Assembly: GCA_035529075.1 (NCBI GenBank)
Contig: DATKXK010000021.1
Span: 1 to 52,388, forward strand
Origin: Acidobacteriota bacterium
Lineage (GTDB): Bacteria; Zixibacteria; MSB-5A5; GN15; FEB-12
Length of the DNA: 52,388 nucleotides
Reading direction: 5' to 3'
Below are positions 47,282-52,388 of the stretch, one piece after another. A program made the translations under genes and the position numbers. The notes below the pieces were generated by a model that was not told where the DNA came from, made no database searches, and saw only the letters and a program-made list of their open reading frames with translations. Every line of letters starts with the position of its first letter. Position 1 is the stretch's first letter.

Positions 47282-48013
47282 TCAGTGAGGGAAGAAGAGG
47301 GCGCCGAAATCCTGAAGGAAATGGGCGATGATGCACGGCCAGATGCTGCCGGTACGAATGTACAGAAGCGAAAACAAGACACTATAGGTGGCGATAACGA
47401 TAAACCCGGGCAGACCCTGGTAGGCGTGACACAGGCCGAATACGGCGGCCGAAACGATCGTGGGAATGATCCAGCTGCGAAACCGTCCGACGAGACGAAG
47501 GCGCGTCATCAGGTATCCCCGGAAGGCCGTCTCTTCGCAGATTCCCGCCGTCAGCGAAACCACTACCCAGACGACCTTGCCGAACGGATCGGAAGGAATC
47601 AGCAGGCCGATTTCACCCGGCATGGGCAGCCCGACCTGAGCCAGCAGCCAGGAGAGGCCCGATAGAATCAGATTTGAGACGAGCAGAAAGGCACCTGCCC
47701 AGAGAAAATCAAGACCCCGGATTCTCTTGAATCCGAGTCCCCTCAGGCCGGTGGCTTCCGTATAAGCGCCTCCATAATTCAGCAGAAACACCGCCCACTG
47801 GAAGAGCACGGTAGTGATCAAGAGGAAGATCAGCATGCCCTGGTTCAGGCTTTTGAGCAGAGAGGAAGAATCCTCACCGACGCCCAAAACGGAAATGACG
47901 GGGTAGATGAGCAGCAGGAATATGAGATTGAGCCAGGTGAGGGTAGTTCGACGGAAGTCCTGGTTGCCCGAGGCAGTGAGAAACTGGCTGGATTTGTCGC
48001 CGGGCCAGCCCAA
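47282..48013 (-). CDS. CPBP-family intramembrane glutamic endopeptidase
   Basis: A 243-residue polytopic membrane protein (about six to eight hydrophobic segments). The CPBP catalytic motifs are present: EETAFRGYL (EExxxR), FGLCHAYQG (FxxxH) and AHFLQDF (HxxxD/N). Family members cleave or process membrane-anchored peptides and include bacteriocin-immunity proteins and Rce1-like proteases. It appears to start at a TTG (48013) with GGGAG almost adjacent; the frame stays open for another ~20 codons upstream with no ATG/GTG, so the start is uncertain. It lies 64 bases after the small membrane protein gene on the same strand. Confidence 0.82.
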   Translation of the reverse strand: MGWPGDKSSQFLTASGNQDFRRTTLTWLNLIFLLLIYPVISVLGVGEDSSSLLKSLNQGMLIFLLITTVLFQWAVFLLNYGGAYTEATGLRGLGFKRIRGLDFLWAGAFLLVSNLILSGLSWLLAQVGLPMPGEIGLLIPSDPFGKVVWVVVSLTAGICEETAFRGYLMTRLRLVGRFRSWIIPTIVSAAVFGLCHAYQGLPGFIVIATYSVLFSLLYIRTGSIWPCIIAHFLQDFGALFFPH

Positions 48014-48077
48014 CTCTCCCGATTCGCTATATGCGGCAATCCGTTCGTAGGGTTGATCGTCCAGACCGGCCTCGCTT

Positions 48078-48329
48078 TCAGCTTACCGGGGGGTTCAACT
48101 GATCGTTGGTTGACCTGTTCTTCCTCGCTATAGACCCTGCGACCAGAGCCAATCCGAGTACGATGATCAGGAGAGGCCAGCTGTACTTGATCGGAGGCAG
48201 CAGGTTGGATGTATGGCCCCAGAGGTATAGGCCGATGCCCAGCAGTATCACGCCGCTGACAAGTGGCCGCCTCTTCTTCGGTCGTTTCTGCTGCGTTTTG
48301 CCCGTCATGTCTTCCCTATCGGTTTGCAT
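48078..48329 (-). CDS. small two-TM membrane protein
   Basis: An 83-residue protein with a basic N-terminus (GKTQQKRPKKRRP), two hydrophobic helices (LVSGVILLGIGLYLW and YSWPLLIIVLGLALVAGSIA) and a polar tail. It resembles the DUF5668/LiaI type and the 51-residue protein at 31.5 kb. ATG 48329 has GGAG eight bases upstream. A TATATT (48355-48350, minus strand) would start a transcript only ~14 bases before the ATG. It probably forms an operon with the CPBP protease. Confidence 0.65.
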   Translation of the reverse strand: MQTDREDMTGKTQQKRPKKRRPLVSGVILLGIGLYLWGHTSNLLPPIKYSWPLLIIVLGLALVAGSIARKNRSTNDQLNPPVS

Positions 48330-48520
48330 TCCATTAACTCCGTCTACAGAATATATGGCAAAAACTGTGCAATTGTTTAGGTAAACTTGATCTCACGGCA
48401 ATTTTCGTGGCTCGTGCCGGTCGGGTGAATCACGTGATACCGGTGTAACCCGTTGGCGCAAAACGGACGTGACGGGCTTGTGGTAGCGCAGGGCGTCACC
48501 GCCGGGTAGGTTCTGGGGCA

Positions 48521-48558
48521 ACCGCAAGGTCCCGCAGGGCGCGGGGCTGGTCGGCAGC
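48521..48558 (+). other. three stacked hairpins in the leader of the sigma/zinc gene
   Basis: ACC-GCAA-GGT, CCCGC-AGGGC-GCGGG and GCTG-GTCGG-CAGC follow one another without gaps, about 47 bases before the ATG. They do not match a riboswitch class I know. Confidence 0.4.
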
Positions 48559-48604
48559 ATACTGCAAACTCGAAACGGCCCACAGATAAAGGGGGATTCA
48601 GGAG

Positions 48605-49141
48605 ATGGCGGGAAACAGGGTGATCTACCAGAACTGGATTGCAGATACCGGCCGTGGTCGGCGGCGGGACCGCAGCGGCAGCCGGTCCGGGCTTGATGAC
48701 CGCACCTTGACGCCCGCTCAAGCGGCCGCTGATCGGGAGCGCCGGGACCTGATCGGACGGGAAGTGGCAAGGGCGCTGCTTGCGCTGACGGACGACGAGC
48801 GTGAGTTCATTGAGCGATTCTACTTCGCCGGGCAGAGTTACGCCTCTGTCCGTGAGAGTTCCGGGCGAGACGTCCACAAGCTGGAGGCGTTGCACAAGCG
48901 GGCACTCAGGAAACTCAGGAAGGAGCTTGCTCCACTGGTGGCCCGGCTTTACCACCTTCACCGGGCCCCGGAGGCTGACTGCGTAATCTGCAATTCCCCG
49001 TTTCGCCCGCAGATCGACTTGTTGATACGGTATCGCGACAAGTCCGGCACTTGGAAAGACATCATCGGGACCCTCAGGAGCCGTTACGGGATCAGGATCG
49101 GCACGCCGCAGATTCTGATCGGCCACGAGAAATACCACTGA
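48605..49141 (+). CDS. sigma-region-4-like HTH fused to a CxxC...HxxxH zinc motif
   Basis: A 178-residue protein. Residues ~40-115 look like sigma-70 region 4 (ERRDLIGREVARALLALTDDEREFIERFYFAGQSYASVRESSGRDVHKLEALHKRALRKLRKEL), a helix-turn-helix for -35 DNA. The rest has CVICNSPFRPQIDLLIRYRDKSG and ends GTPQILIGHEKYH. That C-x2-C plus H-x3-H arrangement around a helix-turn-helix-like core occurs in small regulators of mobile or phage-like regions. No sigma region 2 is present, so it is not a complete sigma factor. It is followed by an RHH protein 70 bases on. Role: DNA-binding regulator, inferred. Confidence 0.65.
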   Translation: MAGNRVIYQNWIADTGRGRRRDRSGSRSGLDDRTLTPAQAAADRERRDLIGREVARALLALTDDEREFIERFYFAGQSYASVRESSGRDVHKLEALHKRALRKLRKELAPLVARLYHLHRAPEADCVICNSPFRPQIDLLIRYRDKSGTWKDIIGTLRSRYGIRIGTPQILIGHEKYH

Positions 49142-49211
49142 ACCGTCCGGGGCTGCAGGTTATCGGGAAACGACGTTTCTGCAGCACGGCACACGTCCTG
49201 GAGGAAAGAAT

Positions 49212-49475
49212 ATGGCGGCGAAAACTGAATCGAACGTAACCCGGAAACTTCGCGGCGAGCACTGCCTGAACATCTTCGTCTCGTACGAACTGAAGAACAA
49301 GCTGAGGCAACTGGCGCAAAAGTATGACCGGACAACGGCCGACATAGTTCGGGCCGTTCTGAGGATCGGCATCCCCATGATGGAGGGCCTGTCTGCGGCT
49401 GAAGAGGTCATGGTGAAAGAATACGTGCAACTGTTTCGGAAGCTGCGGCAGGTCAAGGCGCTAAAGGAGATCTGA
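49212..49475 (+). CDS. ribbon-helix-helix (CopG/Arc-type) DNA-binding protein
   Basis: An 87-residue protein. CLNIFVSYELKNKLRQLAQKYDRTTADIVRAVLRIG has the beta-strand, helix, turn, helix layout of an RHH regulator; dimers insert the strand into the major groove. The C-terminus is a charged helix ending QLFRKLRQVKALKEI. GGAGGAAAG precedes the ATG. It pairs with the sigma/zinc protein and could be a repressor, an antitoxin or an accessory factor; no toxin gene is next to it. Confidence 0.78.
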   Translation: MAAKTESNVTRKLRGEHCLNIFVSYELKNKLRQLAQKYDRTTADIVRAVLRIGIPMMEGLSAAEEVMVKEYVQLFRKLRQVKALKEI

Positions 49476-49491
49476 GCCGAGCGGGCCGGGG

Positions 49492-50505
49492 CTACGGGCA
49501 GGGGGCCGGAAGAGGATTCGGTTCAATGAACAGGTACGAGATCAAGGCCGTAAGGTCACCGACGTCAACGATGCCGTCCGGGCCTCCGTCAACATTTGCC
49601 TCCGGCAGGCAGTCAAGCCCGGGGTAGGATCTGACAAATAGATAACCGATCAGCGCGGTCAGATCACCAATATCGATAACCTCCTCGAGGTCACCGTCGA
49701 TATTGCCGGTCAGCCCGAGGCAGCACGGTGTCTCGCTGCTCCAGCCGGTCAGTCTGGCCATCATCCACCACCAGGCTTTTCCCTTCAGGTAGCAGTTGAA
49801 ACAGTGCGAATGGGCGCAGATGTCGCAGCCCGGGCAGGTGTGGGTGGCGCACCAGTCGTAACACCAGGCGCAGTAATCGGATTCGACCGGATAGAAGTTG
49901 CCGTCGGGATCGTAGCTTTCGATATCGGCAAAGTCGTAAAGCACTTTGTCGTTAGTCGTGCAAAAATTGCGAATCTGGTTGTTCCGTGCGTAGAGGTTGC
50001 CCTCGAGGCCGGTGCTGTCCAGGTGCCCCGTCATGTAAACAAACCTGACAGCCGGGTAGTCCGCCTCCAGTTCCGCCATCTTGTTCAGGTAAATGTCGAT
50101 GCCTTCTTCGGTGTTGTCCGAAACGCCCGCGCACCAGGAGAACATGGCGACGTCGCAGTCCGGGTTGGCGTCGAGGTACGTTCGCGTGTACGGCGCCCAG
50201 GAGGTGTCGCCGGTGAGGCCGAGATCGTCGGCACGCTCATAGAAATCCGGCTTGTCATAGGAGCCGTTTTCATCGTGCAGCATGACCAGACCGGTCATGA
50301 TCTGGCTGCCGTGGGAGGTGTGCAGGTAGTAGACGTGGTAGTTGCTTCCGATAGTTGCGATAACCGAGCCGGGGATGATGCCAAACTCACCGACCGCGGA
50401 GTGATCGGCGATAATGGCTTCGCTCCAGGCAGTCGCGGGTACGGAGACCGCCGCCAGCGCAATCAACACCACGGCGACGACCGGTACTGAGAATGATCTG
50501 AGCAT
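49492..50505 (-). CDS. secreted Cys-rich protein with two dockerin repeats
   Basis: A 337-residue protein. A signal peptide (MLRSFSVPVVAVVLIALAAVSVPATAWS) is followed by an SGNH-hydrolase-like N-terminal part (NYHVYYLHTSHGSQIMTGL, DVAMFSWCAGV, RFVYMTGHLDSTG). A Cys/His-dense segment of eight Cys and two His (about residues 208-236) comes next. Two dockerin-type Ca2+ repeats end the protein: NIDGDLEEVIDIGDLTAL and NVDGGPDGIVDVGDLTAL. The hydrolase assignment is tentative. GAGGAG precedes the ATG, and a good promoter lies 170-200 bases upstream. Dockerins bind cohesins in cellulosomes, but in this lineage they are mostly an anchoring tail of unknown partner. Confidence 0.82.
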   Translation of the reverse strand: MLRSFSVPVVAVVLIALAAVSVPATAWSEAIIADHSAVGEFGIIPGSVIATIGSNYHVYYLHTSHGSQIMTGLVMLHDENGSYDKPDFYERADDLGLTGDTSWAPYTRTYLDANPDCDVAMFSWCAGVSDNTEEGIDIYLNKMAELEADYPAVRFVYMTGHLDSTGLEGNLYARNNQIRNFCTTNDKVLYDFADIESYDPDGNFYPVESDYCAWCYDWCATHTCPGCDICAHSHCFNCYLKGKAWWWMMARLTGWSSETPCCLGLTGNIDGDLEEVIDIGDLTALIGYLFVRSYPGLDCLPEANVDGGPDGIVDVGDLTALISYLFIEPNPLPAPCP

Positions 50506-50642
50506 CAGTGCTCCTCTAGTCCAGACATCGATAAGAATACCGAAGACTTCAGACAAACGATCCGGTGTAACCCTCTGCGACAACGCATGCCCCCCGGCGG
50601 CTCTTTAGCGCCGCAGGGGCCGGAAAGTACAACTCGCCCGAA

Positions 50643-50850: not shown

Positions 50851-52388
50851 CTACTGGCAGTCCGCTGGCGGCGGATTCGGCGGGATGAACAGGTACGCGA
50901 TCAACACCGTCAGGTCGCCGATGTCGATGACACCACCGGCATCACCGTCGATATTGGCCTCCTCCGGACAGGGCAGCGGCTCGGTAGGCGGTATGAACAG
51001 GTAGCGGATCAAGGCTGTCAAATCCCCTATGTCGACTTCATCGTCCGGCTTCCCGTCCACGTTGCCGGTGGTCCCCATGCAGCAGCCTTCCATCGACTCC
51101 TGCAGTATCTCCTGAGCCGTCAAAGCACGGTCGAAGATCTTGACTTCGTCGACGACGCCCTCGAACCGATCTCCTAATCCTTTGCCTACGATCAGCGGGC
51201 TTGTATAGCTGGTGTTCAGGTCGGCGTTCATCATGTATGGAAAGCTGGGATCCAGCTCACCGTCAACGTATATCTTCACTTCTCTATCCAGAAACGTAAT
51301 AGCGAGGTGGTTCCAGTCGTCGACCCGGATCGCCTTTGTGGTCAATGGCGCGTCGCGCCAGCCTCCGTTGTAATAGGCGAAGTTGACCCGCCCGGAGCCG
51401 ACAACCTGCATCTGCCAGTTGGCGTCATTCTGCCATTCCGGCGTCCTCTTGACCACCGGGCCGTACGTGCCTTCGTCGGGGAGGCGATACGGTTTTATCC
51501 AGGCCATAAGCGTGATGGCGGCAGGTCTAAGGTATGGGTCGTCCGGTACCTGCAGGTAATCGTCGATCCCGTCAAACTCGAGGCCATGGCCGAACCGGCC
51601 GTCCACCCAGCTTGGCCCGTTCACCAGCAGACCGTCGTTTCTGATAAAGCTTGAATCATGCGCAATAGTGCCGGTACCTTCCTCAAACCTCCAGTAGCCG
51701 ACAAGGGAAGACTCGCAGGCGTCTCCAACATTGTTGCTGTTGGCATCAATCTGGTCCGGATTGTAAACGGTCGGGCAGTTGTCACACGTGTCACCCACCT
51801 GATCTAGGTCCTGGTCCGACTGGCCGGGGTTATAGGTCAACGGACAGTTATCGTCCCACTCCATGACGCCGTCACAATCCTCGTCATACCACGGGCAGCC
51901 GAACAGATAATCGCATCCCGGCCGCAGGTTGTCCGCGTACCACACCCGCGCTGCCGCCATCCGGGCGTCCATGTCTGCCGACGTGCCGTTCTGCACCGAC
52001 GATACCACCGAGTAGAACGTCATCGTGTCAGCGGCTCCGAGCGTAACGTTGTGCTTGAACGTCACGACACCGTGAAGGTCCGCATTCTCGCTCTCCAGAC
52101 CGTTGTCGTACCCGGTCAGGCTGCCCATGAGTTGCCAGAACCGAGGCGGCTGCAGGGTGTCGTCGATAAACAGGTTGCTGTCGTTACGACCCGCAAACGC
52201 TCCCACGAAAGCCAGGTCGTTCACGCAGTTGTCCAGGTTGTACTCCGCGTTGGTGTACATGCCCAGGAAGGCATGAGTGCCCCACCGGTCGGCATGGTTC
52301 TGGCACCGCAGCGTGTCATCAACGTCGTCAGTACCCTGGTAGTAAATCGTCCGGTACTTGGCGTTCGGAATCCCGTTGTTGTTCGAAC
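50851..52388 (-). CDS. secreted LamG / thrombospondin-type-3 / dockerin protein (5' end missing)
   Basis: The frame runs to the right window edge, so the N-terminus lies outside. From N to C: a beta-rich region ending with YNLDNCVNDLAFVGAFAGRND; thrombospondin-type-3 Ca2+ repeats (DEDCDGVMEWDDNCPLTYNPGQ, DQDLDQVGDTCDNCP); a LamG/concanavalin-like domain (LVGYWRFEEGTGTIAHDSS..., GLEFDGIDDYLQVPD, WNHLAITF, GVVDEVKIFDRAL); and two dockerin repeats (DIGDLTALI, DIGDLTVLI). Typical of extracellular carbohydrate- or protein-binding proteins. Its dockerins are close relatives of those in the next gene, suggesting the same anchoring system. It is upstream of the other dockerin gene, in the same orientation. 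Confidence 0.88.
   Translation of the reverse strand, partial: SNNNGIPNAKYRTIYYQGTDDVDDTLRCQNHADRWGTHAFLGMYTNAEYNLDNCVNDLAFVGAFAGRNDSNLFIDDTLQPPRFWQLMGSLTGYDNGLESENADLHGVVTFKHNVTLGAADTMTFYSVVSSVQNGTSADMDARMAAARVWYADNLRPGCDYLFGCPWYDEDCDGVMEWDDNCPLTYNPGQSDQDLDQVGDTCDNCPTVYNPDQIDANSNNVGDACESSLVGYWRFEEGTGTIAHDSSFIRNDGLLVNGPSWVDGRFGHGLEFDGIDDYLQVPDDPYLRPAAITLMAWIKPYRLPDEGTYGPVVKRTPEWQNDANWQMQVVGSGRVNFAYYNGGWRDAPLTTKAIRVDDWNHLAITFLDREVKIYVDGELDPSFPYMMNADLNTSYTSPLIVGKGLGDRFEGVVDEVKIFDRALTAQEILQESMEGCCMGTTGNVDGKPDDEVDIGDLTALIRYLFIPPTEPLPCPEEANIDGDAGGVIDIGDLTVLIAYLFIPPNPPPADCQ

Follow-up and report, generated by a model that had tools for sequence, protein, structure and literature searches.

Background

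Several described systems resemble parts of the locus considered here. The SigO protein of Bacillus subtilis contains region 4 of sigma factors without region 2 (PMC8103513). Among ribbon-helix-helix (RHH) proteins, the ParR protein of plasmid R1 controls its own operon and binds direct repeats of 11 bp (PMC9426499), and omega of pSM19035 binds WATCACW, the complement of GTGAT, over promoters (PMC9499535). Short half-sites in direct repeats with a step of 7 to 11 bases over the regulator's own promoter are a known habit of RHH proteins.

The window analysed here, the whole stretch of 52,388 nucleotides, is a contig of a Zixibacteriota genome. The preliminary description of this DNA had proposed a two-protein transcription switch: a gene (ORF1) for a fusion of a sigma region-4-like helix-turn-helix (HTH) domain and a zinc-type module, followed by a gene (ORF2) for an RHH regulator. 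Region-4-only proteins and RHH iteron autoregulators are already known kinds. The novelty would lie in the fusion and its zinc module, in the fixed pairing and in the iteron array abutting the -35 box; no description of these, or of such a regulator from Zixibacteria, was found in the open-licence literature. The two-gene unit looks like a core, self-controlled regulator unique to Zixibacteriota, given that it is near-universal in single copy, that the genes are paired, and that the promoter carries a nearly unique DNA code.

Proteins encoded by the pair

ORF1 (48605-49141, plus strand; ATG start with GGAG upstream) encodes a protein of 178 aa. Its region-4-like HTH domain (aa 52-108; 48758..48928, plus strand) was identified by Pfam and NCBIfam profiles, a PDB profile match and Foldseek. 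Taken as a single sequence, ORF1 yields a sub-threshold match to Sigma70_r4 in Pfam (E=0.024) and a weak region-4 match in NCBIfam (2e-6). At the family level, Sigma70_r4_2 (PF08281) is matched at E<0.01 by 60 of the 73 members, and the family profile matches a solved sigma region 4, 6pfj, with E=6e-11. The AlphaFold model, in which pLDDT exceeds 90 at 132 of 178 residues and which is confident over approximately residues 40-178, superposes on region 4 of E. coli sigmaE (2h27) with a target TM of 0.84 at 1.4 A. The region 4 HTH fold of the sigma-70 family is thus present by both profiles and model. No profile match to region 2 was observed in ORF1 (Pfam, NCBIfam), and there is no space for it, as just some 36 mostly disordered residues precede region 4. 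ORF1 is not a complete sigma factor. The previously proposed region-4-like HTH without region 2 is therefore upheld by the family profiles and by structure prediction, which had been named in advance as the test of the fold.

The N-terminus contains a conserved motif, RVIYQNWIA (aa 5-13; 48617..48643, plus strand), seen in column conservation; its family form is R..Y.NWIV..G.DP, with W11 retained in 89 and R/K5 in 101 of 112 relatives. The model places a short helix (residues 11-15) here, with low pLDDT.

The C-terminal part (aa 118-178; 48956..49138, plus strand) is a CxxC-x44-HxxxH three-helix module that belongs to no known family; no clear counterpart was found in Pfam, PHROGs or PDB sequences. 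Among 112 aligned relatives, the zinc-type ligands C126 and C129 are present in all, H174 in 111 and H178 in 107. The near-invariant CxxC and HxxxH are what a zinc-stabilised module would show, and its junction with region 4 agrees with what had been noticed initially. The ORF1 model comprises one recognised HTH and one HTH-like zinc module. The zinc module occurs once in the window's own genome, and a separate search of 79 of the outside genomes described below found it in none of them.

ORF2 (49212-49475, plus strand) begins after a spacer of 70 bases and encodes an RHH DNA-binding protein of 87 aa with a long C-terminal helix. The profile searches gave weak support for RHH, including weak RelB-like and Arc-like matches. 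The model (pLDDT 88) has a short strand region followed by helices 25-37 and 42-85, that is, the beta-alpha-alpha fold of RHH proteins, with structural matches to CopG, Arc, AmrZ and CdbA. The expected RHH regulator 70 bases after the fusion gene is thus confirmed by the model. When the families were compared by eye, the N-terminal motif of ORF1 did not coevolve cleanly with the C-terminal helix of the RHH protein: families f7 and f8 break the pattern, and for that reason no ORF1-RHH interface is claimed. The ORF1-ORF2 spacer of the window contains an imperfect inverted repeat (GGGGCTGCAGG...TTTCTGCAGC, 49149-49190).

Distribution and inheritance

ORF1 is present in 112 of 132 Zixibacteriota genomes, nearly always as a single copy, and the RHH gene likewise in 112 of 132. 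All ten single-contig genomes contain both; the genomes without a match are mostly fragmented assemblies. In each of the 110 fetched loci having both genes, these are adjacent on one strand. The order is reversed, with the RHH gene upstream of ORF1, in one locus alone (L121 of genome G010). The preliminary description had advised looking for the fusion with its neighbours in other genomes and for paralogues in this one. Co-occurrence proved strong, and no paralogues of either gene were found in the window's genome. Together with the region-4 fold and the RHH protein, the fixed linkage supports the two-protein transcription unit.

A full-profile search of approximately 254 bacterial genomes outside Zixibacteriota did not find the full-length fusion; the matches listed are of region-4 type, extend to profile position 120 or so, and reach 1e-15 at best. 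The fusion and its zinc module belong to no curated family, yet one copy, next to the same RHH gene, has been kept by almost every member of this large uncultured phylum.

An initial leaning towards a phage-like or mobile origin was not borne out. No relatives of the pair were found in viral contigs, and tblastn against phages produced weak region-4 matches to sigma factors alone (best E=0.5); the search covered viral contigs and phages. Trees built from either protein, or from both, agree with the taxonomic families: they need 17-18 label changes, the minimum possible being 17 and shuffled labels requiring at least 55. A phage or mobile-element regulator was rejected on these grounds. By these sequence comparisons, the pair is a vertically inherited, non-mobile, single-copy core pair of Zixibacteriota.

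Promoter and candidate operator

Words common to the genomes are strong upstream of ORF1, whereas the spacers within and after the pair contain weaker shared words, e.g. ribosome-binding sites. The box GTGANTCA..TGA stands ahead of ORF1 in 37 loci. Its orientation is the same in all of them, and neither the ORF1-ORF2 spacer nor the one after ORF2 contains it.

In the window, the distal operator box 1, GTGAATCACGTGATAC (consensus ATGTGANTCAYRTGATA), occupies 48425..48440 of the plus strand, roughly between -94 and -79 relative to a putative transcription start near 48519. The proximal box 2, GTGA-N7-GTGG (48469..48483, plus strand), recognised by its rigid spacing and aligned columns, is made up of two iterons of GTGA type with an 11-base step between them, which puts them at 44 and 55 bases from box 1. 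It abuts a weak candidate -35 hexamer TAGCGC (family consensus T[AC]G[AC]CA; 48484..48489, plus strand), deduced from column conservation, which is followed after a 17-base spacer by a candidate -10 hexamer TAGGTT (family consensus T[AT]TCTT; 48507..48512, plus strand) with conserved T/W/T columns.

The distance from box 1 to GTGA-N7-GTGGTAG is 54-55 bases in 18 of 18 loci, counting those in which GTGGTAG is intact and stands where expected. In 42 aligned promoters, the G-T-R-R of the second element stands directly before T[AC]G[AC]CA, whose first T is found in all 42, and the 17-base spacer between -35 and -10 is random sequence. The alignment offset was chosen on columns 0-9, and thus the unbiased evidence is the GTGA at -11 to -8 and the -10 columns.

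Deep families f12-f14, f15 and f16 have plain tandem GTGA iterons with an 11-base pitch in the same register, the last iteron ending at the putative -35; the GTGA positions of f1 (0, 44, 55) share the phase of these arrays. In f12-f14 the same array is combined with a better -35 (TTGCTT). Distances between GTGA copies show peaks at 9, 11, 22 and 35 bases, where shuffling gives an expectation of 0.4. When each genus is represented by a single locus, a spacing of 9 bases is seen in 31 of 75 genera, 44 bases in 15 and 11 bases in 14, the shuffle maximum being 7 at any distance. Families f17, f18 and f19 have no clear GTGA array, so the GTGA operator is not universal. Box 1 also holds an inverted arrangement, TCAYRTGA/TGANTCA. 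Repeated half-sites at the unit's own promoter, as expected of an RHH regulator, are present.

RNA-based leader control was rejected, no Rfam match being found at E<=0.1 in 47800-50000. A sigma70-like promoter for the divergent LiaI-like gene (see below), TAAACA-18-TATATT, is seen at 48350-48379 on the minus strand, and box 1 sits between this promoter and that of the pair.

The sole exact match to the strict box GTGANTCAYRTGA in the window's genome is the pair's own promoter (48425). Across the phylum, the strict box gave 100 matches versus 42 for the reversed control, approximately 38 of them being promoters of the pair; the 11 non-promoter matches that were opened all fall in coding sequence, e.g. 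TSP3 repeats and secG. The box with two mismatches occurs in the window's genome at chance level (8 vs 7). In the genomes of f12 and f15, and in most of the f13 genomes that gave a match, three GTGA at 11-base pitch are seen at the pair's promoter and nowhere else. One f13 genome in which the pair was not found has a three-GTGA 11-base array (G104:C131:3051-3076), which may be what is left of a truncated locus. A regulon with intact operators elsewhere was rejected, as the strict, two-mismatch and three-iteron patterns are at chance beyond the own promoter. The target, called unknown in the preliminary description, can thus be narrowed: the own promoter carries a conserved candidate operator that, at strict stringency, is nearly unique to it. 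A regulator of itself alone would be odd for a core gene of a phylum, which hints at unrecognised targets.

Genomic neighbourhood

The pair usually stands at the head of a lipid A operon in families f1, f3 and f4. The gene order is lpxC-fabZ, lpxA, Gfo/Idh oxidoreductase, lpxB, waaA, and a CAAX-type protease gene lies divergently upstream. The start of lpxC-fabZ is on the strand of the pair and no more than 1.5 kb downstream in 28 of 48 f1 loci, 13 of 13 f4 loci and 4 of 4 f3 loci. In f2 and the deeper families the downstream genes, named by eye from sequence, are ThyX/ribonucleotide reductase, response regulator, RsmD-like, MiaA-like, GroEL, or genes on the opposite strand. Most families between f1 and f14 have the protease as the divergent neighbour of the pair, and thus the intergenic operator could also influence it. 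In the window, the genes divergent from the pair encode a small LiaI/LiaF-like membrane protein (48078-48329, minus strand) and a CAAX-type protease, Rce1-like (47282-48013, minus strand; E=6e-23).

The gene after ORF2 in the window encodes a minus-strand dockerin-type protein, and lpxC is not directly downstream. There are two such extracellular proteins (49492-50583 and 50851-52386, both minus strand), the second running off the contig end. Similar genes also follow the pair in several relatives (loci L039, L042, L044, L048, L069), and in some close relatives one stands between the pair and lpxC. The lpxC gene of the window's genome begins 778 bases into another contig (C16), behind a minus-strand gene fragment. 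The window's contig and C16 may be neighbours, and lpxC may therefore lie past the gap at the end of the window's contig. In this genome lpxC is outside the transcription unit of the pair. Its promoter, TTGAAC-17-TATACT (L151:700-780), is near-consensus sigma70 and exemplifies the Zixibacteriota housekeeping promoter.

Discussion

The explanation that we favour, at roughly even confidence, is that the two genes form a core transcription-control unit of Zixibacteriota that regulates itself, with the RHH protein acting on the iterons and ORF1 facing RNA polymerase. The pair stands behind a candidate sigma70-type promoter with phased GTGA half-sites in 11-base steps, the last touching the -35. 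RHH dimers would bind the iterons along one face of the DNA, and the resulting array would meet RNA polymerase at the -35 and set the level of both proteins, autorepression being slightly favoured over autoactivation. ORF1 would be the partner facing RNA polymerase: its region-4 and zinc/HTH modules may bind the beta flap and/or -35-proximal DNA, modulating initiation at the pair's promoter and probably also at promoters not recognised here. In f1, f3 and f4, the unit heading lpxC/fabZ-lpxA-lpxB-waaA probably also influences transcription of the lipid A operon.

In a more ambitious and clearly more tentative reading, ORF1 would be an accessory factor of RNA polymerase peculiar to the phylum: a mimic of sigma region 4 that carries a new DNA-binding zinc module and acts at many promoters, with a dedicated array of RHH iterons setting its level. 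Control of initiation by it would be confined to Zixibacteriota, with a rank comparable to that of WhiB, RbpA and CarD. There is a real chance that the pair is a phylum-specific initiation factor. If ORF1 is a region-4 mimic, this would be a lineage-specific way of controlling transcription initiation. The candidate operator was read from comparative sequence with base-level geometry relative to the -35 and -10, which makes the unit testable in vitro without culture of the host.

The direction of regulation and the reader of the half-sites admit other explanations. It is possible, although we tend to doubt it, that the array is a class II activator site and that the pair stimulates its weak promoter through an RHH-RNA polymerase contact or the region-4 domain of ORF1, with positive feedback or bistability. 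The proximal iteron lies directly upstream of a non-consensus -35 (TAGMCA) in a fixed register and at a rigid distance from box 1, and the degenerate -35 of f1 fits activation as well as repression. However, RHH operators that touch a -35 are usually repressive, and f12-f14 retain the same array with a better -35. It counts in favour of activation that AmrZ, also an RHH protein, works as an activator as well as a repressor (PMC3325190). The GTGA operator could also be read by the region-4 HTH or the zinc module of ORF1 instead of the RHH protein, which would then be a modulator or bind elsewhere. We give this a somewhat smaller chance: ORF1 has two suitable modules, non-palindromic direct repeats can suit monomeric reading heads, and the last iteron is at the usual binding place of sigma region 4, but the inverted arrangement in box 1 is typical of a symmetric dimer and short half-site iterons have clear RHH precedents. 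That the pair is a dedicated regulator of the lipid A operon is improbable. The linkage with lpxC-fabZ in f1, f3 and f4 is absent from f2, and in f5-f19 its sole instance is one unmapped f4 genome, the downstream genes being unrelated or in the opposite direction; in the window's genome, lpxC is on another contig with its own sigma70-like promoter, and the gene after ORF2 is on the minus strand.

The remaining candidates seem less probable still. An alternative sigma factor split in two, its region-2 partner being encoded elsewhere, would explain the SigO-like domain arrangement (PMC8103513), yet the -35 and -10 of the promoter are 17 bases apart in the manner of a housekeeping sigma, and the conserved partner encodes an RHH protein; a region-2 neighbour was rejected, the adjacent gene being RHH in 110 of 110 loci. 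Still less likely is a partition or centromere-like system with an RHH protein and an iteron array once per chromosome, similar to ParR/parC or MatP. The 11-base iterons, the near-unique array and the precedent of R1 ParR speak for it, but there are just 2-5 iterons, and the partner is the region-4/zinc protein rather than an actin-like or Walker motor ATPase. Linkage to origin or terminus was rejected, as the distance from dnaA varies from approximately 0.06 to 0.40 of the chromosome among eight single-contig genomes. The least probable is a toxin-antitoxin pair with an RHH antitoxin, or a phage or mobile remnant. An autoregulated bicistron and the weak RelB-like and Arc-like matches of ORF2 would be in line with it, but the pair is single-copy, phylum-wide and vertical, it has no relatives in viral contigs or phages, and ORF1 is by its fold a DNA-binding protein with no toxin fold. 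A toxin-antitoxin system was rejected, since region-4 fold and vertical inheritance were found in place of a toxin-fold partner and patchy horizontal spread.

Compared with known systems, the favoured self-regulating unit combines familiar and distinct features. ORF1 shares the four-helix fold of sigma-70/ECF region 4 (PF04545/PF08281; about 1.4 A to sigmaE region 4), but it has no region 2, carries the zinc module and the N-terminal Y.NWIV motif, and is always beside an RHH gene. SigO-RsoA of B. subtilis is similar in having region 4 without region 2 in a small autoregulated operon (PMC8103513); however, it comes from another phylum, whereas the partner of ORF1 is RHH rather than region 2 and ORF1 contains the zinc module. 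WhiB-like proteins of Actinobacteria are likewise clade-restricted small metal-binding regulators around housekeeping sigma region 4. WhiB binds sigma region 4 and carries an Fe-S cluster, whereas ORF1 itself contains a region-4-like domain, and the likeness is an analogy only. ORF2 has the RHH fold of Arc, CopG and AmrZ and differs from these regulators in its long conserved C-terminal helix, the fixed pairing with ORF1 and the phasing of the iterons to the -35. ParR/parC of R1 and omega of pSM19035 also combine an RHH protein with short direct repeats overlapping its own promoter. Unlike these, the Zixibacteriota pair is chromosomal, with no partition ATPase, few iterons and a region-4 partner; its iterons have the 11-bp pitch of R1 and the ATCAC/GTGAT core of omega.
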